A stretch of DNA of 24,865 nucleotides from Fragilaria crotonensis (lineage: Eukaryota > Bacillariophyta > Fragilariophyceae > Fragilariales > Fragilariaceae), in the NCBI GenBank assembly GCA_022925895.1, contig JAKSYS010000794.1:1-24865 (forward strand), in the 5' to 3' direction. The notes below the pieces were generated by a model. It saw only the letters and a list, made by a program, of their open reading frames with translations, was not told the origin of the DNA and did no database searches. The translations under genes were made by a program, and so were the position numbers. Shown piece by piece: positions 679 to 24,865 of the stretch (positions within the stretch are counted from its first letter, which is position 1; each line of letters starts with the position of its first letter).

Positions 679-883
679 CGGGATGCGTAGCCTTTCCGCC
701 TCAGTGGCGGTCGACTACCTAACGGGGTTTGTAGGAGTAGGATGAGGTACCGCCACAGTGTCCAGTACAATAATAGTGCAATAGTATGGAATGGTGTTGG
801 TGGCATCTTTACTAAGAATTACCACGCCATCCATCCTGTAGGACGGTAGCACTAGTAGTATAGTGCCTATCGTACTCGTTCGG
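675..883 (-). repeat. Split direct repeat B, inner copy
   Basis: This 209-bp block matches the outer B copy at 185-394 except for one deleted C. It lies directly downstream of the pol frame (stop at 944) and overlaps the inner A copy by ACGG. Confidence 0.9.
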
Positions 884-943
884 CCCAAAGGGGGCCAAAG
901 GCTGGAGTTGGGAGGGTGCCGAAGGCAGGGTGGGAGTCGGCGG

Positions 944-1515
944 TTATGGTGGTGTGAGGCGGAAGGCGCCTCCACGGAGCATGGCCGCAGAAAGACCATT
1001 CATAACCGGCTGGGCTTGCACATGCAAGTAGCGGTACATCTCGTCGGACCGCCACCGACCCACCATGCGGATGCGGTCGGAGTCGACGCCAGCACAAAGG
1101 AGGGCCATGGCACCGCCGGCGCGGGTGGAACGCACCGTGACGTCGGCGACCGCGTATGCAGGGTCCGGATGGACCAGTAGAGCAGTGCGAATGCGAGTAG
1201 TGATGTCCGACGGTAAGATGTGCCGGAATGGGCTGTCCGGGTGAACGCGCACAGCATTGAGGGGCGTATCCGGAGTGGCTCCGCTGCGGCGCAAGGTGGC
1301 GACGCGAGCGGCCAAGCAATGTACGGGGCAAAGGAAGGGGTGACCAGAGCGGCCGTGGCCAATAGTTTCGTTGCGAACGCCATTCTTCTGGGTCGTGAAA
1401 GTCAACGTGGCAAAGGTGGCCGCGGAGAGGTCGTCGTCGGGGCAAGTGACAGTATCAAGTGCCCGCGAGCCAACCCACAACGTGACGTCGCGAAGCCGAA
1501 AGAGGGGCCTGCGCC
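944..1515 (-). pseudogene. Tyrosine recombinase C-terminal catalytic part
   Basis: This segment continues the recombinase in a different frame from the RT, beginning around PLFRLRDVTLWVGSRALDT near 1510. Visible catalytic elements are QKNG with the beta-hairpin lysine (near 1387), STRAGGAMALL with the second arginine (near 1123), GRWRSDEM with the GRW tryptophan, and YRYLHVQ with the nucleophilic tyrosine (codon near 1030). Tyrosine recombinases of DIRS elements insert the circular DNA copy without target duplication. The frame join falls in about 1505-1545 and needs one extra base or two missing bases. A 35-nt GT...AG stretch lies there, but removing it gives the wrong frame. The stop at 944 lies 60 bp before the inner B repeat. 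Confidence 0.82.
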
Positions 1516-3746
1516 GGAAACAGGGGAGTGCCCAGATACTCACCCGGTCGAAGCAGGAAGTAGAACCCGACGACCAAGCATTCTGCCACGGCGATCGCAA
1601 GGGCGGAGGGCGTTTGGTGAGCGAGCGCCCATACTTGCGCCACCACGGAGACCGGGAGGGGTTTGACGCGACTCGGAGGGACATCTTCGCGTCCCCACGC
1701 ACGATACAGGGCCGTGAGGCGAATGTCCACATCGCCATGGTGGTTCAGGCGAGGGTCAGAGGCCCCCAGCCGGGCGTACGCCTGACCCACCGCTCGTACG
1801 GCGTCCTCCACCGTCCGAGCGGACAGGTTGACGGCCGGGAGCAATGGAGCCGGTACGGTACCGTTGGGCAAAGAGTTGGAGCAATGGGACGGGATCGGTG
1901 TTGCCGAGATGTCGGGGGTCCACGTGTAGGGAGGCGCAGAAGGTTTCCCATAGGCGCCAACTGGTGTCGGCCGAGGCCGCGCGTTGCCGAGAAACCCGTC
2001 CGGCGGACGTTTCCTGAAGAGCGCACCAGTCAAGGAGGCATTGGTGTCGGGTCGCAGCCGGCGCAGCACCCAAGAACGCACCTGTGGATAATGCGCTTGA
2101 AAGTGAGTCACGAGTTGTGCATCAGATAACTCCCAGAGACGGCTGGCATCGTCGGCCATGGCATTCACCGGGCCAGGAATATAATGGTGACGGGCCAAAT
2201 AGCGATGATGCCGTTGGTGTACGGCATTGTACTGGAGAAGATATGCGCGGGCAGCGAGCGACGTTGCTGACCCTTTCGTGGACCACGCGACCGCTGCGCG
2301 GTTATCGCTCGCAATCCATATCGTGTGTTCGCGCACGTCGTGGCAATGCACAAGGACATCTTTGTGGGCAATTATGCCTGTCAACTCCAAATCGGATATA
2401 GACAAAGAGCCCTCGCGGTTGTCCGAAGTGACCAGTGCTTCCGCAACATGTGGCGCGAAGCGTTGGCGCCACACGATTGGCGGTTGGTCGCCCTCACTGG
2501 ATAACCACACACCCCCCATGCCAGTTTGACAGGCATCGCAGGCACCGACATAGGACGGTGCGGTGGGAACAAGTTCCTGCAGCCGCGTGGGACGCTCGGC
2601 CAAGGAATCAACGAGTGCAGTGAAGTCGGCGGCGGCATCATACACTTGCCGATTCAAACGCACCCGCCGTTTGTCTCCGCGACTAAGGGCCTCCTGGAGC
2701 ACGGAGAAGAGCCCTCGTGTGCCCGGGAGGGCCGGAGACATGGACCGTAGCTCTCCTAGTAGCTGGTGCCACTTGGCAACGGCTAGGCGTTTGCGTGGTG
2801 GCTGGAGCCAGCCGAGGACAGTGCGTAGACGTTCGAGGCGATGCGGTGGCAGATTCAAGGTCATGGTTTGGGAGTCGATGTCCCACCCCAGGATGCGCTT
2901 TTGTGTCATCCAATAGGCGTCGCCTTTCAAGAATTTCTTGACCGATGCAGGCTCTTTGCGATGGGGCGGGTCGCCCTCGTCCAACGGACGAAAAACGCGA
3001 TCAATGGAGTGTAAGGCGGCCCTCAACACTCGTCGTTGCTGGTGCTTCGTCTGTGCCAGCAACAGAAAGTCGTCGACGTATACGTCGACCGCGGCGACGG
3101 GCTTGCTTGGCCGCGATGTTCCCCGGTGGCACGAGACGTGTTCGCAGGGGACGGTCACGTGAAAACCGGCTGGAGGTGTGGCGGCCACTGCCTCCAGCCG
3201 GTGTGAATCCCACAGGCACCGATCCCCTGTTCGAAGCATCTGATTGGCCACGTCACATGCTGTTTCGGTAAGTATCGTGAAGTATGGCGGCGATTCCACC
3301 CAGCCCATCGGGAGGGCCAGCGGAAAGGCTATAATTGGTTCGTGTCCAGGGATACAAGGTAACACGACGCCTAATTTTGGGATGTCCTCTATTCTCACCC
3401 AGACTCGATAGAACCCGTCTGCAATGTCAATCTTTGCCATGTATACAGGTCCATGCCTTGGATCTGCGTGGACCAGGGTGCTGCAAACCCTCTGAAGTGC
3501 TCGCCCAAATTGCATGGCTTCCCGTGGCGCTAACTGGAGCGTCTCCTCGTTAAGCTTGGAAAAAGTATAGTCCACAATAAGCCGTGGGCGTCGATCTCGT
3601 TGCGGACGACGCCCAGAGGCGACACCCGTAAGTGCCGCAGCTGGCGCACGGCCCGGTAGGGCATTACGATCCAATATCCTTGGGCACAAAGTCCAGCATC
3701 TCCTCACAGACGAATTGTCGCTCGCCGGCGGACGAGCGGTGGGCAC
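1455..3746 (-). pseudogene. pol: Reverse transcriptase - RNase H - start of tyrosine recombinase
   Basis: Residues below count from 3746; the first ~46 residues are out of the ancestral frame. RT begins at RRPRLIVDYTFSKLN (52-66). Motif A is KIDIADGFYRV with catalytic D107, motif B is LPMGWVESPPYF (144-155), and motif C is YVDD (223-226). RNase H follows with D404 (GACDACQTGMGG), E454 (SDLEL), D481 (SDNRA) and D532 (ADDASR), matching the usual D-E-D-D set. After a variable linker, a recombinase N-domain-like helical region starts near 645. The first catalytic arginine is R733 in LLRPGEYLG. Just after this the frame is lost: the last ~20 residues and the stop at 1455 are out of frame, and the recombinase continues in the next segment. 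RT-RH-YR in one polypeptide without a methyltransferase fits Ngaro-like pols. Confidence 0.88.
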
Positions 3747-4128
3747 CGCGCGTCACCGCTCCGTCGCGGCGTTCAATCGGCCACGCTGGTGTGTGTACGG
3801 GCACCGTTGCGCCCCGCTTCTTCAGATGAGTCAATAGACGGGCTGCGCGGTGGGATAGTTGGCCCACCGTTGGGGTGATGTCGGACTTCCCGCGTGCCAA
3901 CGCGACGGTACGGACCCACCCATGTGTTGCGAAAAGCTTTTCGGTTACCACTGCTAACTTACCAAGTGCGGCTTCGGCTTCCGAGATCTGGTCTGCTCTT
4001 CGCTTACGGGTGGCGCCGTCGCCTACCCCCACCTCCGTCCCCAAGTCATTCAGTCGCGCCGTCGTCGCTGCCCACGGTGGTGCTGCAAGTAGCCAGGGCA
4101 CACTCGTCGTGTCACCCTGGCCGTCCCG
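3615..4128 (-). pseudogene. pol: Pol N-terminal region upstream of the RT core, frameshifted
   Basis: This frame continues from gag across the TGA. It contains a block that precedes the RT fingers in DIRS-type pols, around HLKKRGATVPVHTPAWP and ERQFVCEEMLDF. It stops at 3664. The expected continuation, YWIVMPYRAV then LRVSPLGVV, lies in a second frame from about 3680 to 3610. The RT frame then takes over at RPQRDRRPRL. Both switches are consistent with loss of one base from short runs (a G run near 3676-3682 and a C run near 3603-3607). The first ATG in the frame lies inside the conserved block, so independent initiation is unlikely. Confidence 0.7.
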
Positions 4129-4131
4129 TCA
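4092..4131 (-). promoter_or_regulatory. Candidate stop-codon readthrough element between gag and pol
   Basis: On the minus strand the gag stop TGA (4131-4129) is followed by CGG. After a 7-nt spacer (4128-4122) comes a hairpin: GCCAGGG (4121-4115) pairs perfectly with CCCTGGC (4098-4092). A second stem, ACAC (4112-4109) with GTGT (4103-4100), closes a five-base loop across a small bulge. A UGA-CGG stop with a 3' stem-loop starting about 8 nt downstream is the pattern known for readthrough signals in several plant RNA viruses. Pol is in the same frame as gag and has no ATG before its conserved block, so a fusion product is the simplest way to express it. Readthrough itself is inferred, not shown. 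Confidence 0.6.
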
Positions 4132-6215
4132 GGTGGCGGGTGCTTGGAGGCGCTCACGAACATAAGCAAGGAGGCGACTTCGCTCTCCCGCCGAGGCGAA
4201 TGGCGTGTGAGTCGCTCGCCTGCCGCAGTTAGGGAAACATCCGCCTTTCGTCCACCATGCCACGCAGAACTCTTGACCAGCATCATTTGATGGGGGGCGG
4301 TGCTCACGTAAGATATTGCGTGTGCCCCCTGCGCGTAGCGGGATGTTGGCGAATTCAGCGTCACCCGCTGGATTCTCGACGCGGGTGACGCTGGTTCTCG
4401 TCACTGTCGGTGTCTCGCCTGAGGGTGTGCTAAGCGACGACACCCCTGTGCGTGTCGATGCGTACGTTATGGTGGTGGAACCACTCCCTCCGCCGGCACT
4501 ACTGCCAGTCATAGACCGCTGTGGCGGTACGGGGTCGAGATACGCTTCCGGGATGTCGACCCAATTTGTTGAGTTATGGAAAGTGCCACGCTTTAGCTCC
4601 TGCAGCATTACGGTGAAGTTCGGCACTTCCACACCGATGACTCCATCGGCAATGTTATGAGCTACCATCTGCATGTACTCGTGCGTGCAAACTTGCACGG
4701 CACGTACGATGCGCGCATGATAGGTAGGTGCGACTGATGGGTGCCTGCTTGCAAGGGCGTGGTATCGCTCCGTGACGAACGGGGCCGCATTCTGGAACCC
4801 CGCGACCATCGACCACATTGCCTCAACGAACGGGTGAGTAGCCCCCACTCCTTGAAAGAGACACTGGCACAGTACTGCATACCTCGTCAAGGTAATCCCC
4901 ACTTCCAGAATATCTCGCGGGAACTTAATGCGTTCCTTTTCGCGTAGGGTGCGGTAGTCAGATAAACTGGCGTTCTGCTCGCCTTGCGCCAATTGGTTTC
5001 CAACGCTCGCATCTGCTAAGGCCAGATAATGGTGGGCGCTGCCAGAGTAGGCAACCAAGAACGGTTGGCATCCCGAGGAAAGGTCGTCTACTCCATGTCC
5101 CACAAACTGGAAACCGACAACCATTTGCTTCAGGAGGGTGGTGATGATTGGTGCATACAACTCTGACGACAGACCTCGAGACATACACACCTTTTGTAAT
5201 TCCTGGGTGAGCACAGTGTGCTGCTCGCTCTTGTGGCAATTTGCAAGGCGGGTCCACACTGGCGCTACGCTCTCAGGGGTTGCCACATTGCAATAGCGGA
5301 GAAGCGTCGTATACGTCTCGTTGTAGGCGTCGGCGATGGTCTTGACTTCGCGTTCGGCACGCCCGCCGTCGCCACCTCGCCCTAGTGTGTCACCCCCCCT
5401 GGCCATCCCCAGGGTACGTAGAAGTACAGCGGCGGCATCTCCTCCACCCGGTCCTTGGGGCGCTGCTAATGCTGGGAGATCCGCCTGTACCTTCATGTTG
5501 ACGTAGCGGTACGCTTCTCGTGGTAGGTGGAGTGGTGGAAACGTGTGGAGTACACTGGGTACAGCGTTAAGTGGACCCCACCTCCACGTGCCGTGCACGC
5601 TGCACGCAACCACGCGATTACGTCCTGACAGGCCTCCGTTTCGTGTTGTGCTTGTATTGCACTCACGATGTCCTGATATGCTTGTTTGGGCCGCACCCTA
5701 TTCCGATGAATCAGAAGGGCGGCGTAGCGACCCGGGAGGAGCTGAATGTGCCTTGTGCGGATGACTTCTGTTTCCGGATCTTGTTCGGTGTAGGGTCCCA
5801 GAACTTGCTGTGCCTCCTCCCACGTGGGTAGGAGCGTAGTCATCGCAGCCACAGTGGGAACCCGTACAGCTGTCCCTACTAGATGGAAGGCGGAACCTTG
5901 GACTTCGACAGTTGGGTACTGGTGAGGTAAGATGTCCCCAACGAAGCCCAGTACATGATCATGAAGTCCCGTGGGCTCGTCACCGGGCGCATCCACATAC
6001 CGGAGCATGCGGTGCACGATGACCACCTCTAGCCCATCATCCCGCCCCGTAATAAGTGCGAGGAATGCCATGGGTTGACGGTCACTGAGTGCAATGGTTT
6101 GATCTTTAAGGGCCGCCGGTGTTGGCACCGCCCCTCCAGGGTCAGTGAAGCGATACCCCGCCAGGTAAGCTGCGGTACGTGCTTCCGGCGGGTTGTTGGT
6201 TGCATCACTATACAA
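4129..6215 (-). pseudogene. gag: Gag-like protein of the Ngaro-like element, one frameshift
   Basis: There are two overlapping frames. The 5' frame (6215 to about 5585) runs through VIAWLRAACTARG. The 3' frame (about 5585 to 4129) picks up at TWRWGPLNAVPSVLHTF and continues to the stop. The switch lies around 5575-5595 and can be explained by a single indel. The 3' part has a helical core, then a Ser/Thr/Gly-rich linker, then a C-terminal zinc knuckle with spacing C-x8-C-x3-C-x5-H (C450 to H469 of the 494-residue frame). That knuckle and the position before pol identify it as the nucleic-acid-binding structural protein of a DIRS-type element. The frame ends in TGA at 4131-4129 and pol follows in the same frame. 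The true start is unresolved: the long 5' frame begins with TTG and stays open upstream toward the A repeat. Confidence 0.75.
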
Positions 6216-6346
6216 CTCACGATACGTACGAGGGCTACACCTTCCCGCGCGGCAGGTAGGTCCCCGGCCCTAGAGGGGTCCGGCGATGGCGTGCGGATCT
6301 ACCAGTTGGGCCATGGTGCGGTGTCGCCTCTGTGCTCAACTGAGTC

Positions 6347-9491: not shown

Positions 9492-9537
9492 CAATCATCA
9501 GAAGGTGCAATATGGTAACTAAATTTTCACATGTTAA
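9492..9537 (+). repeat. Left terminal inverted repeat
   Basis: It begins CAATCATCAGAAGGTG, which is the exact reverse complement of 19069-19084. It continues imperfectly to 9521 and then shares ATGTTAA (9531-9537) with the right end at the same spacing. Confidence 0.75.
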
Positions 9538-9830
9538 GTGTTACCGGATAATGGTGTGTGTCTTTCCTGTTCTTACAATGTACATGGTTGAGTAAACAAA
9601 TATGTTAGCTCAACAATATATTGTTACTTTGAACCATATTAGCAACATATTGATTTGTTTCATAAACATTTATGTTAAGATCTTTTGCTTCTTGTTACTT
9701 TCTTATAATGACAATACACCATCTTTGTTAAGTGCATCCGTTGTAAAATGACCATATTTGTTGTCGTTTATGTTGCTTAGTAGATATATATGCTGTTGAC
9801 TATGTTTCTTTGTAACTATATATGTTACTC
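9531..9830 (+). repeat. Left subterminal TGTTA motif array
   Basis: TGTTA occurs on the plus strand at 9532, 9539, 9603, 9622, 9673, 9693, 9726 and 9823, usually as TATGTTA or TTGTTAC. I see no TAACA in the same arm. Arrays of short directional motifs near the ends are binding sites for element-encoded proteins in EnSpm/CACTA transposons. That role here is inferred. Confidence 0.55.
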
Positions 9831-9940
9831 CTAAATTCAATTGTACAAATCACAATTGTTGATTAAATCCACCTATATTGTTTCATTACGAGTTGCTGAT
9901 GTTGTTGTCACTTCTAACGAGAAGGCACCCGATGCAACGT

Positions 9941-11513
9941 CTAGTCATCATCTGAGTCCCAGTCCGCCTCGACAGGCACCATTGCTTCCGCTCTCTCCAA
10001 CGTATTATTGGGCGCTGCACCACCTGCATCTAGCTCGTCATCCTGATTATCACCAGCATTCTTCTTTCCAGCGCTTGCCCTGCAGAAACGCATCAACTCC
10101 TTTTCCATTTGCTCGGCTTCCGGACACGCCCTGTCCTCTTCAACCACCTTGCGCAATGCATTGAACTGGCTAATTCCGTCTCGACTCCACCCACTGTACT
10201 TGCATTGTCCCGCTTTTTTGAGTATACTTTCCCGCCATTCTTCTTGCTTTCTTTTGTATTCCCTGCCCGCTGCCTGTTTCTGCTTCTGTTGTTGTGCTGT
10301 TGTTTTCTGTTCTTGGTCCAGTGCCTCCTGCCTCCTCCTCCGCTACGACCTTCCACTTCTCCAAGTAATTGTCGATTAGCAACAAACCGAAGGCTTCGTC
10401 GCTCACACTCACAATTTTTGATCCATTGCTCTCTCGCGCCGCCGAAATGAGCTGTGTTGTTTTTGCATTTCTCAAGACGTTCGCACCACAAACACATTCC
10501 AAGAAGTTGTTGAAGAACCAGAAGAACGCCCTTTTTTCCCTTTCTGACGTAGATCTCCTGAGCTTGCAGAATTCCTCGAATGTGAAGAACTCTTCTCCGC
10601 GCTTTTTGAAGTCTTTGATTGCATCCCTTGCAATTTGGGAGCCGGACTGTTCGCAAGTACTTCGTTTTTGGTTCAACGCCTTAGTGAAACATTTTTCGTA
10701 TGTCAATTGAAACACGAACGGATTCTTGGGCCTCTCCACCTCTCGCACCTTTTGAAAAGCCTTGGTGAATGATGCTTGACTGGTTACAAACTTGATCCTA
10801 CGGAACAAGTTGTTTTTGACAAATATCGTAATCCGCTGCGCCACATTCTTCTCCACTGTCGGAACTTCCAACTCTGCATTAAACTGCAACTCCCGCGGCC
10901 TGTAATCATTTGTTGCCCTGCTTGGGGGCTTTGACGCCTTTGAAGTTCCGTCCTCGTCCTCGCTCGGAGGATCAGCCGCACCTTCCTGGGCACGGCGGCT
11001 CGACTCCTTACGATTCTGTTGAGAATCCTCGTCATCGCCCGATGATTCGTTGTCATCTGGCGAGTCATGAATAGCATCGGGGGTTCGAGGAACTTTCTTC
11101 CCCCCCGCCTCGGTATCATCATCCCTGTCGCCATCAGTAGATTTGTAGGACGAGTCATCATCCGAGTCCTTTCGTTCAGAACCCGGGTTGTTGCGTGGTG
11201 GGGGCGGAGCCCTTTTTGCTTTTGCCCTGTTTGTTTTCTTCCTCTTTGCCTTGCCGCCCGAACCAACAACACGCTTTTTTCCCGGTTTCTCCAGCTCAAC
11301 TGTCTCCACAGGGTCCGTTTGCTGTACTGTCTCCAATAGTTTTGCACGTTTTGCCGCCTTCCTTTTCTCCTCTTTCAGTTTCCTCTTTGTCCGCGCCGTT
11401 GGTGTTTCGGGTTCACCGTTCCTGTCTAGACGAACGCGTCCGCCTTGTCCTTGTTTGCTCCGAGTGCGCGTTGCTGGTGAGGATTCCAGAATGTTTGTCA
11501 CCACTGGAGGCAT
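9941..11513 (-). pseudogene. Transposon-borne protein with basic/acidic N-terminus and helical C-terminal domain
   Basis: The likely start is the ATG at 11513 (MPPVVTNILESSPATRTRSK). The frame stays open further upstream but without plausible protein. The N-terminal ~55 residues are Lys/Arg-rich (TKRKLKEEKRKAAKRAK), like a nuclear localisation signal. An acidic Ser/Asp stretch follows. From ITIFVKNNLFRRIKFVTSQ onward the sequence is well structured: YEKCFTKALNQKRS, RAFFWFFNNFLECVCG, SDEAFGLLLIDNYLEKW. A final KYSGWSRDGISQFNALRKVVEEDRACPEAEQMEKELMRF block lies in a shifted frame, and the protein ends in WDSDDD. The shift is explained by one extra A in the six-A run at 10214-10219. I do not know the family name. 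Position and motif arrays suggest an accessory DNA-binding role like TnpA of CACTA elements, which is speculative. Confidence 0.6.
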
Positions 11514-12601
11514 GACGGCTGCAATGGACAAGTACAAAAGCAAGCAATGGGTTAGAAACAAGTCTGACTGGTACGTTTCAATTCGCAGCAAGTGTGAGTT
11601 CAATAACAAGATTGCAATTTTTAGTCATGTACTCTTTTTTTTAATCAGAGAACAGTTTTGGAAGCGTGCACTTGTTGTCCTGTTTGTTCATCATGTAACT
11701 GTACATGATTTGAACATAAATTTATTATGTTCAATTTTAACAATAATTTAACATGTGCATGTCATTTATGTTGTTTGAATGTACTTGCGTGTTCACTACA
11801 TAACGTCGTAAATGTACAGTTTCATCTACTTGGATGCATATGTGTGAGGTTTTGAATATATACGACATGTGTGTAGTGCAGTCTTGTTTTTGCATGGGCG
11901 GCCTCGCCAATCATGTATCGTCAGTACCGGTAAATGTCGTACGCAGCAGTGGTACTATTAGTTCGTGTATATATGTTTATTAGTACGGTGTATACAAATA
12001 TATTTATTAACATATCTTTGAATATGTGTGTCGCGTTGAATACATAGGTGGATTGTGAATCTTATGACAGTTTGAGACACGAATCATAAAAATTCGACTA
12101 CTGTCGATACGTATGCTGCAGTACAACGGCCATGTAGCAGTATGCAGTCCAGTCATGGGAAACTAATAAATCATACATACATGTAAATAAGCATTCTCTT
12201 TTTCTGACTATTAAACTTGATTAAGTACAAAATACTTATGCGATGTGTATGTCATTTTATTATACATATACACGCATAATTAATTAACATTGCTACGAAT
12301 TAAATCTATGTATTAAAACCATGTATATATGGCTGTACTCGTGCAATTACTCTAAGTAAATACACCTCATTTAAAGGTCTTGCTTGGAGTTCCCATGTGT
12401 GAAGTTTCCTTTTTTTGCATAGCACGCAGTGTATCTTGTTTTGCCTGTTTTCTGCGCGCAGTGACACCAAAAATCACAATCTGGTGTCAGAGTACTTCTA
12501 TGAAGTACTTCGTTCATTGATTGTGTTTCGCAACATAACGTCGCCGTCGGATCGTTCTCGCTTCCTTTGAGACAAATTGACAGTCCGCGCCAGGAAGCGC
12601 G
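11514..12601. other. AT-rich divergent intergenic region inside the transposon
   Basis: This is about 1.1 kb between two genes transcribed away from each other (11513 minus, 12602 plus). It is very AT-rich from about 11600 to 12400, with many ATATATG/CATATAT and TTAATTAA-like palindromic words, and holds no credible frame. It probably carries both promoters. No precise site can be assigned. Confidence 0.5.
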
Positions 12602-15127
12602 TTGATTGCTTTGTCAAAAAGGACACGGAACTGGCATTGTGCGGCTCACTACCTGCCAGGAAGCAGTAGAGAGCCCGATGTCGCCAAATCGACGCGACGT
12701 TGGTTGCGTTGGCGTGGATGTTGTTGTGGAGAACCGGATGACGGTTGTGGCGGAGAGGAAGGTTGTGGGAGTGGGGTTGGCGAAGACAAAAAGCTCGCAA
12801 AGAAGAGGAAAAACGCAAAGAAGAAGGCTGCGGAGACCGGGAATAGGACTTCCCCAACTATGGCGTGTGTCAGGAACCTGGGGAACTCGCCACGTGTTCC
12901 GGGAGCGGACAGTGGGAAATTCCTTCCTACTGGGCGCGACGAGAGGCAGAATCGCCCAACTCATCAGCGCATTATGACGCTGTTGTCCATGGCCGTTGTT
13001 CCGGAGGAGAGGATTGCATTCAGGCGGAGATTTGTGAAGGCCATGCGGGGTGGTGATGGGAGTGCCGCGAATTGTTGTGTTTTACTCCCGTGAGCGTCAT
13101 TGCAAAGGCTTTCGGATGCAAGCCGTTTCAATTGCGTTCCGCTGCCGACATGTTCCCGGAGTCCGGACTCCAGTCGGAGTTCCTCAACGAGTTCTACGTG
13201 ATGGACGTGATACTCAATCGGGCTCCTTCACCGGCCGTTTTGACTGGCGGTGGGAAGGGGAGGAGTGGTGGCGGCCGTCGTTCGCATCGCGATGACTGCG
13301 ATGCAGTCCGTCATGCCCTGTCACGCAAACCGGAAGACATTGGCCCTGGGATGGATCATTTCTACCGGGCTGCAATTCTGTTCCTACCTCAGTGTGGGGT
13401 GTTCTATTGTCACCGTGACCGTCACGTTGGGGATGCTGGCGTGCCCGGCACGCTGAGAGCGTATGATATGAGCTGGCTCCGCTTGCAGAGGACGGAGGGA
13501 ACAGAACACGACTTTCCGTTGTATGCCTTTGGTGGTGACAGCTTTGTGAGGCGGTTCTATTCGGATCGCGGTCTAGGCGACAACCGCCGTGTTTCTGCGT
13601 GGAGGATCTCCACGGGGTACCTACCCAGTTCCCTACAGAATCGGGTGGTGTACAGGGCCGTACACAATAGTGATGCTGAATTACCTGCGTTACCACCGGA
13701 TTTCATTGCTGGCGTTGACCTGCGGACTGTCCCTGCTGACTACCGCGCTCATGAATTCCGCAACAAACTCAGAAATTCTAGTAGTGCGAAGTTTGATTGC
13801 CGGCATTACGTTGACGGCAGCCACCACTACAATCTGCAGGAGTCTTGCTGGATCATCGATCCAGAAGAAACTCACTTTGTTGATGTTCACGTTCGCGTCG
13901 ATGGAATTCCAAACCGTGAGTCTGTCGTTGCCATCCGGAACGTAACGAAGATCAGTGCGTGCGATGACCACCTTGAGTTGCTGGAGCGGTTGACATTGCG
14001 ATGTCGTCAGATCCGAGTGTCGGGGCGAAGGGCACTGCCAGGGCGAAGTCGTCCGATGTCGGTTCAATGTTTGCACTGGGCACCAGAATCGAGAAAAAGA
14101 GTCCCGACGGGCGTTGCTGTTCACAGCAAGATTCCGTACGCAGCCAATGGATGTGTTTCGGATAGTGTCCTCCGGGGTCTTGTGGTTGACTTGGCAACCC
14201 TTGGGATTCGCTGTTTCCCTGTGGTCTACTCTGTGGTAAGGGACACCGAGGAGAACTCGGGACTGAGTCCGGTGCCACCGATGGATGGCGTTGCCCTTCC
14301 GACGGGTGGGTCGGGCGGGCGGGGTGGGTCGGATTGCGATGATGAGAATTGTGTTGACGATGATGACGATGACGAAAGAGACGGTGGCGATTGCCTTCGC
14401 AAGGAACTTCGGAGGAAAATGGAAGCGCAAGAGCGTAGACAACGGGTCGGATACACCGTCGACATGAGCATAAACCTGGGCAACTCCTCGCACTACGACG
14501 TGAACGATGCCTCGCAGGGCTATAGTGTGTGGACAGAGGAGGTGCTGGGCCTTGGGAAGAACTGGTATTTTGTTATCCCCAGTGTGTGTGGCCTGCGACC
14601 GGGCACGAAAACCAAGTTCAGTGGCATGGCGGTGAAACTTGGCCACGGCGTGGCCATCAGCTGGGATGGCAGGGTGATCCGGCACTGCACGTCGGTTTCC
14701 TGTCCAGACGGGATGGAACGTGGGTTTGTTGCCAGGAAGAGGGTCTCCCTTTCGAAATTATCTTTATGGGACTTTCACGGCAGCAAAGGAAAAAATTGTT
14801 GAGGCGGGGCGTGCCGCGTGTGCCGAGGCTTTCTGTCCCGGAAAGCCCTCTCCTGTTAAAGCGGTGGTGGATCGCAAGAAGCGGCCGAACAGGAGGCGGA
14901 GAAGACCCCGTGGGGGCCTCGGATCGAATCCGGGGATGCCGTGGTTGCGGGTGTCGGTTGTCCTGCTGTTGAGTTCGCTTCTGTTGAGCCGACTGTTGAG
15001 CTCCCCTCCGTTGTGCCGCTGGTTTTTGGTGGCTGGCAGGTGCGGGCAACTGACCTGGAGGTTGGTGGAAGGTACAGGATACCAAGGAAACAAAAAAAAT
15101 AAACAACATGTTCGATTTGAATACTGA
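12602..15127 (+). pseudogene. Candidate double-stranded beta-helix (2OG-Fe(II) dioxygenase-like) protein, frameshifted
   Basis: The main frame (13072-14802) is flanked by an N-terminal frame (about 12602-13093, Lys-rich KKLAKKRKNAKKK then RIMTLLSMAVVPEERIAFRRRFVKAM) and a C-terminal frame (about 14720-15127). The frames join near 13080 and 14718 by one-base shifts. In the main frame NLGNSSHYDVNDASQGYSV gives an HxD pair (H474, D476). WYFVIPSV and then GVAISWDGRVIRHCTSV follow, with H538 (or H525) as the distal histidine. Strand pattern and HxD...H spacing (about 51-64) fit an Fe(II)/2-oxoglutarate oxygenase fold such as TET/JBP. An Asp-rich insert (NCVDDDDDDERDGGD) precedes this core. The C-terminal frame has YLYGTFTAAKEKIVEAGRAACAEAF and a Lys/Arg tail. 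The start is uncertain; an ATG at 12678 lies in yet another frame. Substrate is unknown, and a role on the element's own DNA is possible but unproven. Confidence 0.5.
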
Positions 15128-15176
15128 AACTACTCCTTCTACTGGTACTCTTCATTGACAGCACCCGAGGGACTGT

Positions 15177-18100
15177 CTACCCCTTCTTTGTCTTCACGGG
15201 AGCTTCCCACTTGCGTTTCAAGTTCCCTGTGGACTGTTGTGCGGCAGTGGCCTTCACAGCCTTTGCAGCCTTTGCAGCTGCTTTCTCTGCGGCGTTGTCA
15301 TCCCTCTTCTTCTTGGCGGTAACCTTTTCGGCCTTTTTTGTGGCAACCTCAGCTCCAAACTCTTCGGCAGTCTTGACCCTATGCACCTCCCGGCCACTTG
15401 GCAGGCGGCTGACAAATTCTTTCTCGTACTCCTCTTCAAACCAAGTGTCGTCGTCGACGTCGTGTTCCAAATCGTGATGACACTTATTGATGAGAGAATC
15501 CCACGCTTGGGGCCACTCCGCCTTCCGACGGATCAAAAACAGGTGACACCGCTTGCGCCTCGGCGCTTTCTCTACTCCAAATGGGGGGACGTCTTCGATG
15601 CCGAGTACTGGAGATAAGATTGACTTGACGTCCACCAGGAACAAGGTGGGATGTCTCTCATCGGGTGAGTGGAAATGTGGGGTGTAGCGCCCTATGAGAG
15701 TGTTCGGAGTGTCGAGGTCGCCAACGGAAACTGGATCAAATGAATGGGCGACAGCGTACAACCCGGCTTCCAAATTTTTCTGCCCATTTGCTTTGATGTT
15801 AATGCACTCTCCATTTGGAAGCCCACGAAGATCAACAAAGGTGTGGATGAATGCTGGATAATCACGGGGTATCCTTCCCACTTGATCATTGCACTGTCGT
15901 TCCAGGCTTTGCCATCATAACAGGGGTGAGCGCGGTACTTGTTGCCCTTACGGTCGGTAAACAATGTGAAGCATGGAAGTGAGTGCTGTGGCACCTTGGG
16001 CAAGCAGTGTTGACTCAGGAAGTCCATCACTCGAGTTGAAAGGTGGGCTGTCTCCATGTTGTCACCGGGACGGGTGAGTCCAGCGGCACGCTGAAAATTC
16101 ATCACCAGTCTTCCAGAAAGGTTGAAATGTCGGCCACCCTTGCCGTCAACAAGTAATGCAACGGGTTGACCTACTCCGTTGTGGGCATCGCCTTTTCTAT
16201 CGGTGTCCATGTCCGCAGAAGCAAGTGATACAACAAGATTCTCAACATAGCGATGGGCAGCTTGCTTGGTGAATGAAACGGCTCGTTTCTGGGTGTTCCG
16301 TGATGTTACCTTTGCGAGTGGAATGTGGGCTGACTCCGCGTACGAACTGTTTACGTTCTCTGGGACGCCGTGGTCAAGGATGTCCTCGCACAGATGCAAG
16401 ACCAAATGTGTCTTGATCGTGTTGTTTCCCATTGCTCCTGGGCGGGGTGCCACTTCAGCGACAACACGCATCAGCCACTGAACTGCCACATGTGAACGCT
16501 TCACCATTTTTTTGGAATGGATGGTTGCTTCATCCATTGATGCCACACTAGAAGAGAGGTCACGATGTCAATCCAATCTATGACATGGTTTTCATAACGA
16601 AGCCTTTGGTCGGGAACCCCAAGTCTGGGTTCCTTCTTCCCGACATCGAAGATAGTGCGGAAGCAGGTGGTGTGCAACGCAAACAACTTCACCAAAAGGC
16701 ACCCTGCCATCTCGTGTCCCATCAGATTGGTTCCTGATGAGAATCCCTTGGGAAAGTTTGTTCGTGGGACATCACGGTCACTCTGTCTCGACAGTTTGCG
16801 GCCCAATTTTGCACACAGTTGATCGTACTCCTTCAATGCATTGGACTTGGGACCGGCTTGGGTGGAGAAAGCCTGCAGGCAGTATTTGAACCAACCGAGG
16901 GAAATCAAGTGTAGCATCTCACCTGGACAGGCACCAAAAATGCCCCGCTGATTGTGCAGACCAAAACGAACCCTGGCAAAGCCGTTTTAAGGTAGGTCTG
17001 CGACAGCAATTGGAGCTCGTTGGTAAAACCTTTGCGAACAAGGGTGTCCATTTTTCTGGGAAGGCGGTGGGGAAACTTAGACTTCGAGTAACCAGTCAAG
17101 TATGTAGGGCACTCGCAGATGCGACAAAGTTGTTTGATCTGTGAAAATCGGGCGGTGTAGTGCCCACAAAGGCGGTCGTGACCCTCTGTGTCACCGATGA
17201 TGAACGGGACATAGAGGTGGAACACGACTGGGTGTATTGTTCCGTTGTACTGCAGATTCCATCGGAAGCCGTACTTTTGCAACTGTAAAAAACCAGACTC
17301 TTGGAGAATAAACTGGATCTGCATGTGTGTCTCGTTGAGGAGCAATGTTGCCCAACTGACATTTTCATCGGGGCACCGAATTGGATTGTTGACACGGTGC
17401 ACTCCCTTTGGCAAGTCTGCGGGTGCATTAAACTTGGGATCAATTTCGGCATCTGAGGGGAGGTTGGCAGGAGTGCTGTGATTGATGTATCCAAGGATGC
17501 GCATGGCGCTTGGGAGGCGGCGCGTAATGTGGTTCAAAAGGCCGTGTGAGACTGTTATGGGCTCCATCTGGAGGCGTCCAGCCATGTCAATGTGGGTCTT
17601 GTCCATCGCCATGACACAAGGTAGGAGCATGTCAACACCGGGTTTCTTTATCAGGGCATCGTACGTCTTTCTATAACAACGACCTGTGTGTATGTCACCA
17701 ACATCCGACGATGCTTGTGGTGCAACAAATGGATCCTTTGCTTCATCAAAAAAATAATTTGTGTCCTGATTAAGTGTGGGACACGAGAGAAGCGACGCGA
17801 ACACCTCCCGAGCATCAAAAAAAACCATGGACACTATCCTCTGCGTGTAAGGGAGATACAATTTCTTCTCCTTGGGGATCAGTCCGTTCATATTATACCT
17901 TTCGTACAACTTGGCGATGACCTTCTCTCGAGTTGGTTGAACACCCTCGCGGAACACATGACCACTCGCGTTTGATTTGGCAGCCCACTTCAGTATGATG
18001 GTAAATGCTTTGAGAGGACAGTGCAGCTTTCTAAGGAGATCTAATAACTCAATTTGGACCTTCTCCTCCTGGGAAAATCGCGCGAGACCTAGTGGGTTTG

Positions 18101-18536
18101 CTCGTAGCTTGAACAGTTCCAAACACAAATCCAACACACCAAGATCAGGACCTTCCTCATCCTCTTCCTCAGTTTCTTCAAAGGCATCCTGATTGCCAGC
18201 GTCGCCATCATCGATGTCTTCAAACATCACAAAATTGTCATCGTCAACTGTATTCAAATCCTTTACGTGATGCAGAGGATCCCCCGCCTCTCCTCTTAGA
18301 GATGCACCGCTCCCACGGAGTGAAGTCCTCGAATTCGGGAAAGTGGAACGATTTCCGACTTGCGACGCATTAGTTGTGTTCGCAATGCTGTCGTTCGGGA
18401 TGGTGGGTGCCACTGTTGCTGCTGCATTGACACGTGACATGTAGAATGATTTACATGCCAAATTATGAGCGAGGTGGGACTGAAGCCTCTTGAAACTCTT
18501 TCCACAAACAGCACAAGCATTAGTCGACGTTGACAT
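15177..18536 (-). pseudogene. Plavaka-like (EnSpm/CACTA-related) transposase, frameshifted
   Basis: Four frames together cover about 1,100 residues: 18536 to ~16985, ~16985 to 16501, ~16510 to ~15870, and ~15880 to 15177. The N-terminus has a zinc-finger-like CAVCGKSFKRLQSHLAH (C8, C11, H21, H24). The catalytic core has GDIHTGRCYRKTYDAL, MAMDKTHIDMAGRLQMEPI with D312, and PFIIGDTEGHDRLCGHY with D449. LCRICECP is a likely zinc site. GIFGACPGEMLHLISLGWFKY follows in the second frame, and the third has YAESAHIPLAKVTSRNTQKRA with a glutamate (codon near 16336). These blocks are characteristic of Plavaka-type transposases, best known from fungi, which act as DDE enzymes at element ends. The tail is Lys/Ala-rich. 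One join fits loss of an A in the run at 16507-16513, another loss of one base in a C run near 15872. The gene converges on the dioxygenase-like gene, with 49 bp between their ends. Confidence 0.8.
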
Positions 18537-19063
18537 TCTGATCGCTGCTGATGAGTGCGTTAATGTGCAGAGTGATTAGAACAGAACACAAATGTTTTAT
18601 TGTGATCAACAAAATTTATAAAGCATGTGAGAAATGATTGGTGTACAATGATTATTTTCAATGAAGCCAGAAATGGTTCGTTCGTGATCCCCTTGTCGGA
18701 TCCAATAACAAAACTTTGGGATGTAATACACATACCAGTAAAAAGAAAAAGGGACTGCATGATAATCGTAGGTCATTCGATTAAACCATGATGGTCAGAT
18801 CAAAATATATATGTCGTACTAACAACCGATTTACACAACTGTGACGCGTAATAACCAAACATGTTATGAGTTACAATGCAAAAATTTGATATTTTGCAAA
18901 GATAACAATCAAAAATATTACTTTTGAATATATACTATAAGGAAGGACTAATATATTTAAACTTAAGCAATCATACATTTACTTTTAACCATATTATTGC
19001 ATCAACTAACAATATATGAATCACAATGCACAAAAAAGTTAACATATAATGACATAGTTAACA
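18537..19063 (-). repeat. AT-rich right arm with subterminal TGTTA motifs
   Basis: This stretch lies between the transposase start and the right terminus and has no gene. On the minus strand TGTTA occurs at 19063, 19044, 19011, 18907 and 18824 (5' base), pointing inward like the left array. The part nearest the transposase ATG would hold its promoter. Confidence 0.5.
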
Positions 19064-19084
19064 TTCTTCACCTTCTGATGATTG
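19039..19084 (-). repeat. Right terminal inverted repeat
   Basis: Plus-strand CACCTTCTGATGATTG (19069-19084) mirrors the left terminus exactly. The match runs on with four mismatches to 19055, and TTAACAT at 19039-19045 mirrors the left ATGTTAA. Outside 19084 the sequence no longer matches the left flank except for a possible gapped ATGC. Confidence 0.75.
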
Positions 19085-21999: not shown

Positions 22000-22968
22000 A
22001 TGAGTGAAGTTGAAGAAACGACGGAGAATCCAACGACGGAAGAGGGTGCTGAAGATGAACCCGTGAAGGAAGAGGAAAGCACGGCAACCTTTGAGCCAGT
22101 GGTAAGTCTATTCTTGGTAGTTGTCGAAGACACTACTCACCATACTCATCAAAATTCGACGGGCGTCCGCGCTTGTAGGATTTATGTAGGAACTGGTACA
22201 TGTATGTACCATGTTGATTTCATTGACGACTTTATTGCTATGGAATGCGTCCTTGATGTTACTCAACGTCCACATCTGCCTGTTTCTAATTTTTCTTTCT
22301 ATATGCATAGGTCAAGCTTGAGGAAGTCGAAGTCAAAAGTGGAGAAGAGGACGAGGTGAGTGACCCGTGTTGGGTCAAGAATGCCACGTTCGATCATTTG
22401 AAATGCCGGACGTATGATGCATTGCATTATGAATTGAATGCACTAAAACTGACGCGCCGCTTTACAGGAAGTTGTAATTGGCCTTCGAGCGAAGCTTTTC
22501 ATCTTTGGAGAGACTCTGCTCGATAAAGGAAGTGGCAAGAAATCGTGGAAAGAGCGAGGTATCGGAGAAATTCGTATCCTTCGTCATAGAGAACACCAAG
22601 GTCTTCGTGTCTTGATGCGACAGGAGAAGACAATGAAAGTGATCGTCAACCATGCGCTGGATCCTAGGATTGCGCTAGAGCCAAATGCGGGATCGGACAG
22701 GTCTTGGGTTTGGTCTGCCTTCGATTTTGCGGAAGGTGTGCTGACAGAGACAGTCTTTGCTATTCGTTTCGCTGACTCCGACATTGCAAACCAGTTCAAA
22801 GAAAAATTTATCGAGTGCCAAAAGGAGATGGAAACGCTGCTCGCTGGAGAAGACAAACCAAGTGCAGATGGAGGTGCCGCAGCTGATGACGCTGCTGCAG
22901 CGCTTGCTGGGCTGAAAACTAACGACGATGCTGACGCTGATGACGACGACGACAGCGTCGATGTTTAA
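22000..22968 (+). CDS. RANBP1: Ran-binding protein 1 (three exons)
   Basis: Exons are 22000-22101, 22311-22355 and 22468-22968. The introns (209 and 112 bp) begin GTAAGT and GTGAGT, end CATAG and TACAG, and are both phase 0. The product is 215 residues. An acidic N-terminus leads into FEPVVKLEEVEVKSGEEDEE, then the RanBP1 domain: LRAKLFIFGE, KKSWKERGIGEIRILRH, LMRQEKTMKVIVNH and the signature GSDRSWVW, then AIRFADSDIANQFKEKFIECQ. An Ala/Asp-rich tail ends in DDDDSVDV. RanBP1 binds Ran-GTP and, with RanGAP, promotes hydrolysis and release from export complexes in the cytoplasm. Length and domain fit the family. An upstream in-frame GTG at 21985 is not needed. Exon 2 is only 15 codons. The gene is intact and converges on the LMBRD2-like gene. 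Confidence 0.94.
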
Positions 22969-23021: not shown

Positions 23022-24836
23022 TCAAACTATGCCATTTGACAAATCTCCGCTAGAACTCTGTGTCGACAATGGTTCGCTTCCATTCCGGATGCCGGACCGG
23101 CGAAGTAATGTGATGCCTTCGTTGACCTTGTTTTCAAGGGTTTCTTGGTCGCCTAACAGAATTGCATCCTCGTGGTCGATGCGAAGGAGGGCAAGAAGAC
23201 GTGCGTAACCATCACACAGGGTAAACCCGCACAGTGCCAAGATTAAAAGCGGTGCGTAGATTGAGAAATTAGTGCCGAAGAATGGAACCGTTTCCATGTT
23301 GCTCATAACATGAGCGAAAGCACAGTCAGTCGACGAAGTATCATATTTAATCCTGCATTTTGCAAAAAAAGTCAGCGGTTGCGTCATTGCATCACATTCA
23401 ACCGATGGGACTTACATGAATAGATAGTTGTATCCCAATGGAAATTGCATGCGAACCAAGTATTGAGCGTTGAAAACCAACGCGATACCGGAGCTCATCA
23501 TACGTCCACGCAGCTTGTAGGGCCCAAACAGGCTGAGCTTGAAAAGGCTGCTGTAAACACATATGGACATGTACAGAAAGGGGATCAAAGCCGACAATTG
23601 AAAGAGCATCCCTCGCGTCTCGTCGAACCATCGCAACAACCAAGCAAATGGCGAGGCATTGAAGGGGAGCCACAATGTCGCTTCTGACCACAGCACCATG
23701 CCAGATAAAACTGCACACATCATCGCCAAAACTCTGATGCATGGATTCCGCAGACAACTCAGCCAGACATGTCGCATATAAGACGATATGTTTGCCAAGC
23801 AAATTGCGAACTTTGGGTCAGCGTCGGAGTTCGATTGTATACGTGCGATGATGGGGCCTTCGGTCAGCTCAGCATAGAATTCGCTCCTCTTAACAACTGA
23901 AAGCCAACGCTGTTCCGCCGACAAAACCTCATTTTGAGCATGTTGAAGTCGGCGATTAAGTTTGGCCAGGCATTCAATAGTAGGAAAGCCTTCGTCCGAA
24001 ACTGCGGCAGAATGACTTTCTTGGCGTCGTTGGCCAGTTGTTCGTCGGCGTTGCAACTCGGGAGACAGGACTGCAGTGGTCTTGCGTAAGGTTAACAATT
24101 TGTCGACACATCGTGCATAATGGTGATCCAAGGTTCGCATGCGACTGCCGTTCTGTTCGTACTCTCCGATGCGTGCGGCTGTGTTGTCAATCATAGCCTC
24201 GCAATCTTGCAAGTCCCAAACCGCTTCAAAAAGATGCTCATCCGCATTTGAGGCAATTATTTGAGTTCGTCTCAATTCCATGGCAGGATCAGCCTGACGC
24301 CAAAGTTTCCTTGGTAGGTCCACTAATCCGTATCCTAGCAAGAGCGACACCAACAAAAGACCGTATGTATTACCGATCGCCATGAGAACAGGAACAACAT
24401 GCCACGAATGTAACTGAATGACCATGAAAGCAACGCCTAATACTCCAAGCACAAGGAGCACGAGATATCCCTGAATTGCAGCTCTGCATCCAGCTTGAAG
24501 GCGTGACCGAAACGTGAAGTGACCACTTAGAAGCGCTTCACGGATAAGTGGTAACAGGAAAAATCCGAGAAGAAACGTTGTCCAGTAAGTTATCTGCCAA
24601 GGGCCATAGGTTGCATTGGGGTGGATCTTCTGGTCGTAATCAGCATCGTAGACGGTTGTGATCGTCAAGTCAACTGGCAACAATGCCACTCCAGCGAATC
24701 CAAGACCGAAGCTTAACACCACAAAGACCTTGATAGAGAAGCTAGTACTGGGGCTGGCAAAGTGACAAACTAGAAAGGCTGACAGAAGAAACAGAGCAAG
24801 GAGAAGAAGGAGCAGGAATTCGGTGGGAAGGTCCAT
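23022..24836 (-). CDS. LMBRD2: LMBR1-domain membrane protein, LMBRD2-like (two exons)
   Basis: Exon 1 is 24836-23416 and exon 2 is 23352-23022. The 63-bp intron (23415-23353) starts GTAAGT and ends TGCAG. Joining them gives 583 residues without a stop. Hydrophobic spans lie near residues 6-24, 35-53, 82-98, 120-142, 150-172, 364-388, 411-432 and 448-465. A ninth (SIYAPLLILALCGFTL) is in exon 2, as expected for nine-span LMBR1 proteins. Recognisable blocks are WQITYWTTFLLGFFLLPLIRE, GHFTFRSRL and GYGLVDLPRKLWR before a charged, coiled-coil-like stretch (185-320). After the splice come AFAHVMSNMETVPFFG and KVNEGITLL. Animal LMBRD2 affects receptor signalling and trafficking; the role in protists is unknown. 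The ATG lies 29 bp from the window edge, so the promoter is outside. Confidence 0.88.
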
Positions 24837-24865
24837 GGTGGATGATCACAGAAAATAGGCTACTA

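Follow-up and report, generated by a model that had tools for sequence, protein, structure and literature searches.

The locus described here raises the question of whether three neighbouring genes of a freshwater diatom, encoding a Plavaka-like transposase (T), a dioxygenase-like protein (D) and a third protein (P3), belong to a single mobile element, and of what a dioxygenase would do in such company. They lie on contig JAKSYS010000794.1 of Fragilaria crotonensis (assembly GCA_022925895.1), of which the stretch analysed, hereafter the window, comprises 24,865 nucleotides (C773 among our contig labels). A preliminary description made from the sequence had read the region as a DNA transposon joining these three components, and our results support that overall reading: we consider it nearly certain that the element is a composite, a Plavaka transposon carrying three genes, one of them TET-like. 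The fuller account, in which the predicted TET-like protein D of this transposon would counter silencing by host cytosine methylation, we regard as probable.

Element boundaries and target site

The element occupies positions 9496-19080, beginning 5'-CATCAGAAGGTG and finishing CACCTTCTGATG-3'. Its left terminal inverted repeat (9496-9535, plus strand) and right terminal inverted repeat (19041-19080, minus strand) match at 12/12, then 22/26 and 30/40 bases; the first 12 bases of the left end are identical in other copies, the best-aligned of which start mostly at 9495-9496 and stop mostly at 19080-19081. The 16/16 match of outer bases previously noticed is real, and an exact inverted 16-mer at a spacing of 7-12 kilobases (kb) arose in none of 50 single-base shuffles of the window, but the outermost four bases per side (CAAT/ATTG) lie outside the element, because other copies align inside them and the flanks yield an AT/AT target-site duplication (9494-9495 and 19081-19082) plus two bases matching by chance. 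Ends at 9492 and 19084 were accordingly rejected; the three genes are indeed bounded as described, by ends that sit 4 base pairs (bp) further in.

Target duplications, which the preliminary description proposed to define by alignment of filled with empty sites, were flush and 2 bp long in all 14 elements read at both ends, namely 13 compared directly (ten short elements, described below, and the long elements of C773, C649 and C620) and C529, read by eye. In that order they are CG, TG, CA, TT, TC, TA, TG, AT, AA and TT for the short elements, then AT, AA, TT and CA; the elements of C98, C110, C177 and C360, with one end missing or unread, were left out of the count. All 14 have termini 5'-CATCA..TGATG-3', which together with the duplications fit the definition of PlavakaB (the same termini, with 2- or 3-bp duplications) in the consulted portions of Kojima 2025 (PMC12730594).

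Three genes carried as one unit

Within these limits lie P3 (9941-11513, minus strand), D (12606-15127, plus strand) and T (15177-18536, minus strand). Comparison with open relatives shows each to be broken by frame changes in the window copy: P3 into two frames (11513-10170 and 10342-9941), D into at least three (12606-12977, 12581-13093, 13057-14802 and 14678-15127) and T into at least four overlapping frames. The annotated protein fragment MHU86_24949 corresponds to P3.

The genome searched (62.1 megabases in 881 contigs) contains at least 121 matching pieces of D, 90 of T and 95 of P3. Clusters were built from one place per gene and locus, among the matches listed, and 24 of these contained all three genes; in every one the order P3-D-T and the relative orientation were the same, so that the genes travel together, a point that the preliminary description had marked for checking. 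Two clusters, on C85 and C367, additionally contain parts of a second element, and C620 bears a further three-gene cluster divided by inserted DNA. Eleven clusters combined P3 and T and lacked D, one of them (C160) being discordant in orientation. A second search, with a diverged D as query (P0174; best 40 of 413 candidates scored), located D inside the P3-T interval on C829, C124 and C160, next to T on C1, C134, C183, C285 and C609, and next to P3 on C321, C340, C482 and C770. The D copies, dozens in this genome, fall into at least two subfamilies.

Near-full-length copies occur on C110 (98% identity to the window element across all 9.6 kb) and C649 (94-95%). The 10,124-bp element on C529, which has its own target duplication, keeps its three frames open and lies within what appears by eye to be a reverse-transcriptase-like reading frame. 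Among copies the genes diverge together, their divergences being correlated. Judged from these sequence comparisons, P3, D and T are carried as one inherited unit of a cut-and-paste transposon. As a separate observation, C367 shows at 37800-52872 the order T-D-T-D-P3, in which the two tandem T-D pairs differ greatly in their identity to the window, two family members standing side by side.

Predicted features of the three proteins

The attribution of T to Plavaka is upheld by the Pfam profile PF18759, which scored 28.2 bits with the window copy and 31.8 bits with that of C529, above the curated cut-off of 26.3, in an alignment limited to about 120 of the profile's 325 positions. T has a zinc-finger-like CxxC start at its N-terminus. 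The open C529 protein further contains CRVC at residue 492 and HLVLH at 737, and the window copy has CRIC and HLVLH in the same order. This order is compatible with the motifs of the CMC group, defined in the excerpts of PMC12730594 for CMC(T) by C(2)C and H(3-4)H between the second acidic residue and the last E; the comparison was made with the catalytic D, D and E unplaced, and the protein contains four other H(3-4)H strings.

Structure prediction makes it very likely that D has a TET-like fold. The model is a double-stranded beta-helix of TET/CMD1 type, resembling TET2, CcTet, NgTET1 and CMD1, with TET2 the best match by about 3 Z units and the match, extending beyond the core, spanning model residues 163-723 versus TET2 1155-1914; FTO (Z 10.8) and PHD2 (Z 10.3) fall 7-8 Z units below TET2. 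Over the aligned parts, sequence identity to TET2, CcTet, NgTET1 and CMD1 is 7-13%. D had earlier been called an HxD...H dioxygenase-like protein, and this characterization holds both in the predicted fold and in the conservation of the iron triad, whose positions are kept in 133/133, 125/130 and 124/127 readable homologs; the second position is D in 125, N in the other five and E in none. From comparison of homologs, HYD, which forms the HxD motif of the predicted iron site, lies at 14491-14499 of the window, and the string WDGRVIRH at 14662-14685 (both plus strand) contains the distal histidine and, just ahead of it, two nearly invariant arginines (R674 and R677).

P3 combines a charged N-terminus with a helical C-terminal domain. 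In a relative, P0098, the N-terminus is of low complexity and the helical domain comprises residues 232-493, predicted mostly at a local distance difference test score (pLDDT) above 85, with a poorly predicted stretch near 405-455; structure comparison of this predicted domain yielded no usable fold match.

Empty sites and short derivatives

To locate empty sites, the flanks of 13 elements were joined with one copy of the duplication, and the best 40 of 121 candidates were scored. An uninterrupted match across the junction was obtained for seven of the 13, with best copies of 99-100% identity for C620, C134 (one base shorter than the query), C525 and C215 and lower identity for C58 (96%), C394 (95%) and C173 (93%); several of the matched target sequences are repetitive in their own right. 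Among the candidates scored none was an empty site for C55, C235, C874 or C223. A second flank search, with the window and C649, found an empty relative of 73% identity for C649.

Ten short elements, 1.9-2.7 kb long, have in common their first 185-340 and last approximately 230 bp (68-80% identity), which enclose internal repeats. Two short segments of the T region survive in five of them (C58, C173, C223, C394 and C874), and no such segment was seen in the comparison for the other five. Those on C134, C235 and C55 are 99.4% alike and occupy different sites. The occurrence of nearly identical copies and, for some, of identical empty sites indicates that movement of the short elements was recent, and their sequences are most readily explained if they are non-autonomous derivatives that a related transposase has mobilised. 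The preliminary description had anticipated that the same ends around unrelated content would tell against it; such is, to the letter, the mostly different content of these ten elements, but they leave the linkage of the genes unbroken, since non-autonomous copies are expected of a cut-and-paste family.

From cross-matches, the short elements (L041-L050) appear to form two families, with internal repeats about 170 bp apart. At C546 (34823-35238) the left flank is 99% identical to that of the window and the element start is the same, which makes this a filled site that is either allelic or duplicated; some haplotypes may therefore have stayed uncollapsed in the assembly. Flanks are also shared, over the 15 bases compared, by C620 and C202 on the left and by C98 and C360 on the right.

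Selection and signs of methylation

Diverged copies are under purifying selection, the ratio of nonsynonymous to synonymous divergence (dN/dS) being 0.16-0.32 for D and 0.11-0.24 for T, with several dS values high and some pairs saturated. Comparison of the window with the young copies C546, C649, C177 and C98 gave 0.43-0.51, and with C110, on very few changes, 0.16; young pairs excluding the window gave 0.26-0.34. Also on very few changes, a near-identical D pair (C393-C21) gave 1.3 and a T pair (C251-C317) 0.06. For P3, three pairs gave 0.15, 0.60 and 0.64, and three further pairs were saturated.

Transitions per site were more frequent at CpG than at other C/G sites in five of six overlapping comparisons (for example, 60/864 versus 53/2992), counts that lack a host-gene baseline. 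The host assembly contains 13 matches to the C5-methyltransferase profile PF00145 on nine contigs, possibly including contaminant contigs. In the consulted parts of a study of F. crotonensis, 48 differentially expressed 'mobilome' genes, among them a single plant-type transposon gene in nine copies, were all up at high pH (PMC9732472).

Surroundings of the element

To the left of the element, on the minus strand at 867-6269, lie the remains of a retrotransposon that matches RVT_1 weakly (E 1.9e-5, below the cut-off); it looks DIRS-like by eye, with a possible recombinase-like frame at 944-1744. To the right lie host genes for a protein with a RanBP1 domain (22453-22968; E 1.2e-31) and for an LMBR1-like membrane protein (23412-24845; E 7e-66).

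Discussion

In the mechanism we propose, T would cut and join at CATCA/TGATG and D would oxidise the element's 5-methylcytosine, or a base related to it, an oxidation by which the element would escape or reverse silencing by host cytosine methylation and so be transcribed and moved. The structural model suggests that a D-carrying element may strip or alter host silencing marks, and an anti-silencing role for element-borne D is likely. In the maize Spm/En (CACTA) element, the TnpA protein couples DNA binding to demethylation of the element; Spm/En, with TnpA and TnpD, resembles the present case in its CACTA-like superfamily and in having a second protein tied to element demethylation, and differs in that TnpA is not known to have a dioxygenase. 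P3 may, like TnpA, bind DNA or chromatin at the element and help to aim D or T, a role put forward because of its constant company with D and T and for that reason only.

Several observations weigh against this account. Eight of the 11 P3-T clusters still lack D among the matches listed or scored in both D searches, C160 has T opposite in orientation to P3, and the second flank search revealed no empty counterpart of the insertion in the window. The Pfam Tet_JBP profile (PF12851), which helps to recognise TET/JBP proteins but does not define them, matched none of 44 D members at E<=1, and D has no detectable sequence match to solved TET chains; a PF12851 scan of the genome gave no match, its controls likewise giving none. 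Where comparison by eye would put TET2 R1896, the arginine behind the distal histidine that binds 2-oxoglutarate, D has no conserved arginine, so its use of 2-oxoglutarate is not assured. One of the six CpG comparisons was reversed (1/794 versus 8/2909), CpG depletion is mild (observed/expected 0.92, with flanks at 1.0 and 0.81, again lacking a host-gene baseline), and PF00145, whose matches may come in part from contaminant contigs, extends to enzymes other than DNA methyltransferases.

Of the alternatives, the one that survives best, itself rather unlikely, makes D a writer of modified DNA bases in the manner of CMD1, adding a group to a methylated base or oxidising thymine or 6-methyladenine, the mark shielding or labelling the element; the margin by which TET2 leads the fold matches argues against it. 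We are more doubtful still that D acts on protein or RNA, hydroxylating host chromatin factors or the transposase, with only its fold TET-like: the fold class does include protein and RNA hydroxylases, among them FTO and PHD2, but these score far below TET2, and the match covers more than the core. There is little probability that the role of D is past and the family now a relic passively carrying the enzyme, as the frame changes or stops in the window copy and many close copies might suggest, given that open copies persist, that purifying selection acts between diverged copies, and that the nearly identical C134, C235 and C55 derivatives occupy different sites, the C134 empty site being 99-100% identical. 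Chance nesting of unrelated elements, or a single capture of D and P3 as host genes, is in the main refuted, notwithstanding C160 and the ten short elements with the same kind of ends and none of the genes, by the 24 collinear clusters, the near-full-length copies, the correlated divergence and the open unit on C529 with its own duplication.

Fungi harbour DNA transposons many of which carry TET/JBP genes, among them PlavakaB elements of Agaricales (PMC12730594), and the likeness to this fungal link that had been remarked upon is borne out by the predicted fold of D, which makes the comparison more than an analogy. The composite is, as a kind, not new as had been supposed, a fungal TET-bearing Plavaka having been published in December 2025 (PMC12730594). 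That element shares with ours, as far as the excerpts of the paper extend, the Plavaka transposase, the CATCA..TGATG termini, the short duplications (2 bp here, 2 or 3 in fungi) and an internal TET/JBP-like gene whose kinship was found by structure-based comparison, the fungal PE type being likewise very distant in sequence from known TET/JBP members. It differs in that fungal Plavaka TETs are of PE type with an HxE motif, whereas 125 of 130 D homologs have HxD, a motif retained by the fungal AG and PU types; D as a PE-type TET was therefore rejected. It differs also in host, and in the third gene and the order P3-D-T of the diatom element, though the fungal elements may have a third gene as well.

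Kyakuja, Zisupton and Dileera of fungi likewise join a DNA transposon to a TET/JBP gene, but the same excerpts describe their transposases as without sequence similarity to Plavaka, and Kyakuja as having 7-bp duplications and no inverted repeats (PMC12730594). The giant Plavaka repeats of Amoebidium also combine the transposase with cargo genes outside fungi, but form tandem gene clusters of up to 50 kb with tyrosine recombinases, and the consulted parts of that report mention no TET gene (PMC11244446); nor do those of a report on a green alga with EnSpm-Plavaka elements (PMC12633428). TET2, CcTet, NgTET1 and CMD1 share with D the fold and HxD...H triad, and differ in their low identity to D and in its encoding by a transposon, with no Tet_JBP profile match. 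In the literature searched, which covered few subscription journals and some papers only in part, no TET-carrying transposon outside fungi was found. As no common sequence is detected, capture of the TET fold by the diatom Plavaka was likely independent of that in fungi. A more speculative extension, which we hold to be slightly less credible than the base-writer alternative, couples independent capture with a three-part kit of cutter, base modifier and DNA-bound partner, in which D, with the usual 2-oxoglutarate arginine missing, would make a new or CMD1-like base on the element and P3 would target or read it.

The same pairing occurs in a distant host group, in the same transposase superfamily and with an enzyme type other than that of the fungal Plavaka elements, which suggests that transposons have captured DNA-base oxidation repeatedly and under selection. 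The anti-silencing idea becomes testable in an alga, and D may offer a new branch of the TET fold, one whose co-substrate site is unusual and which could be put to use in methylation chemistry.
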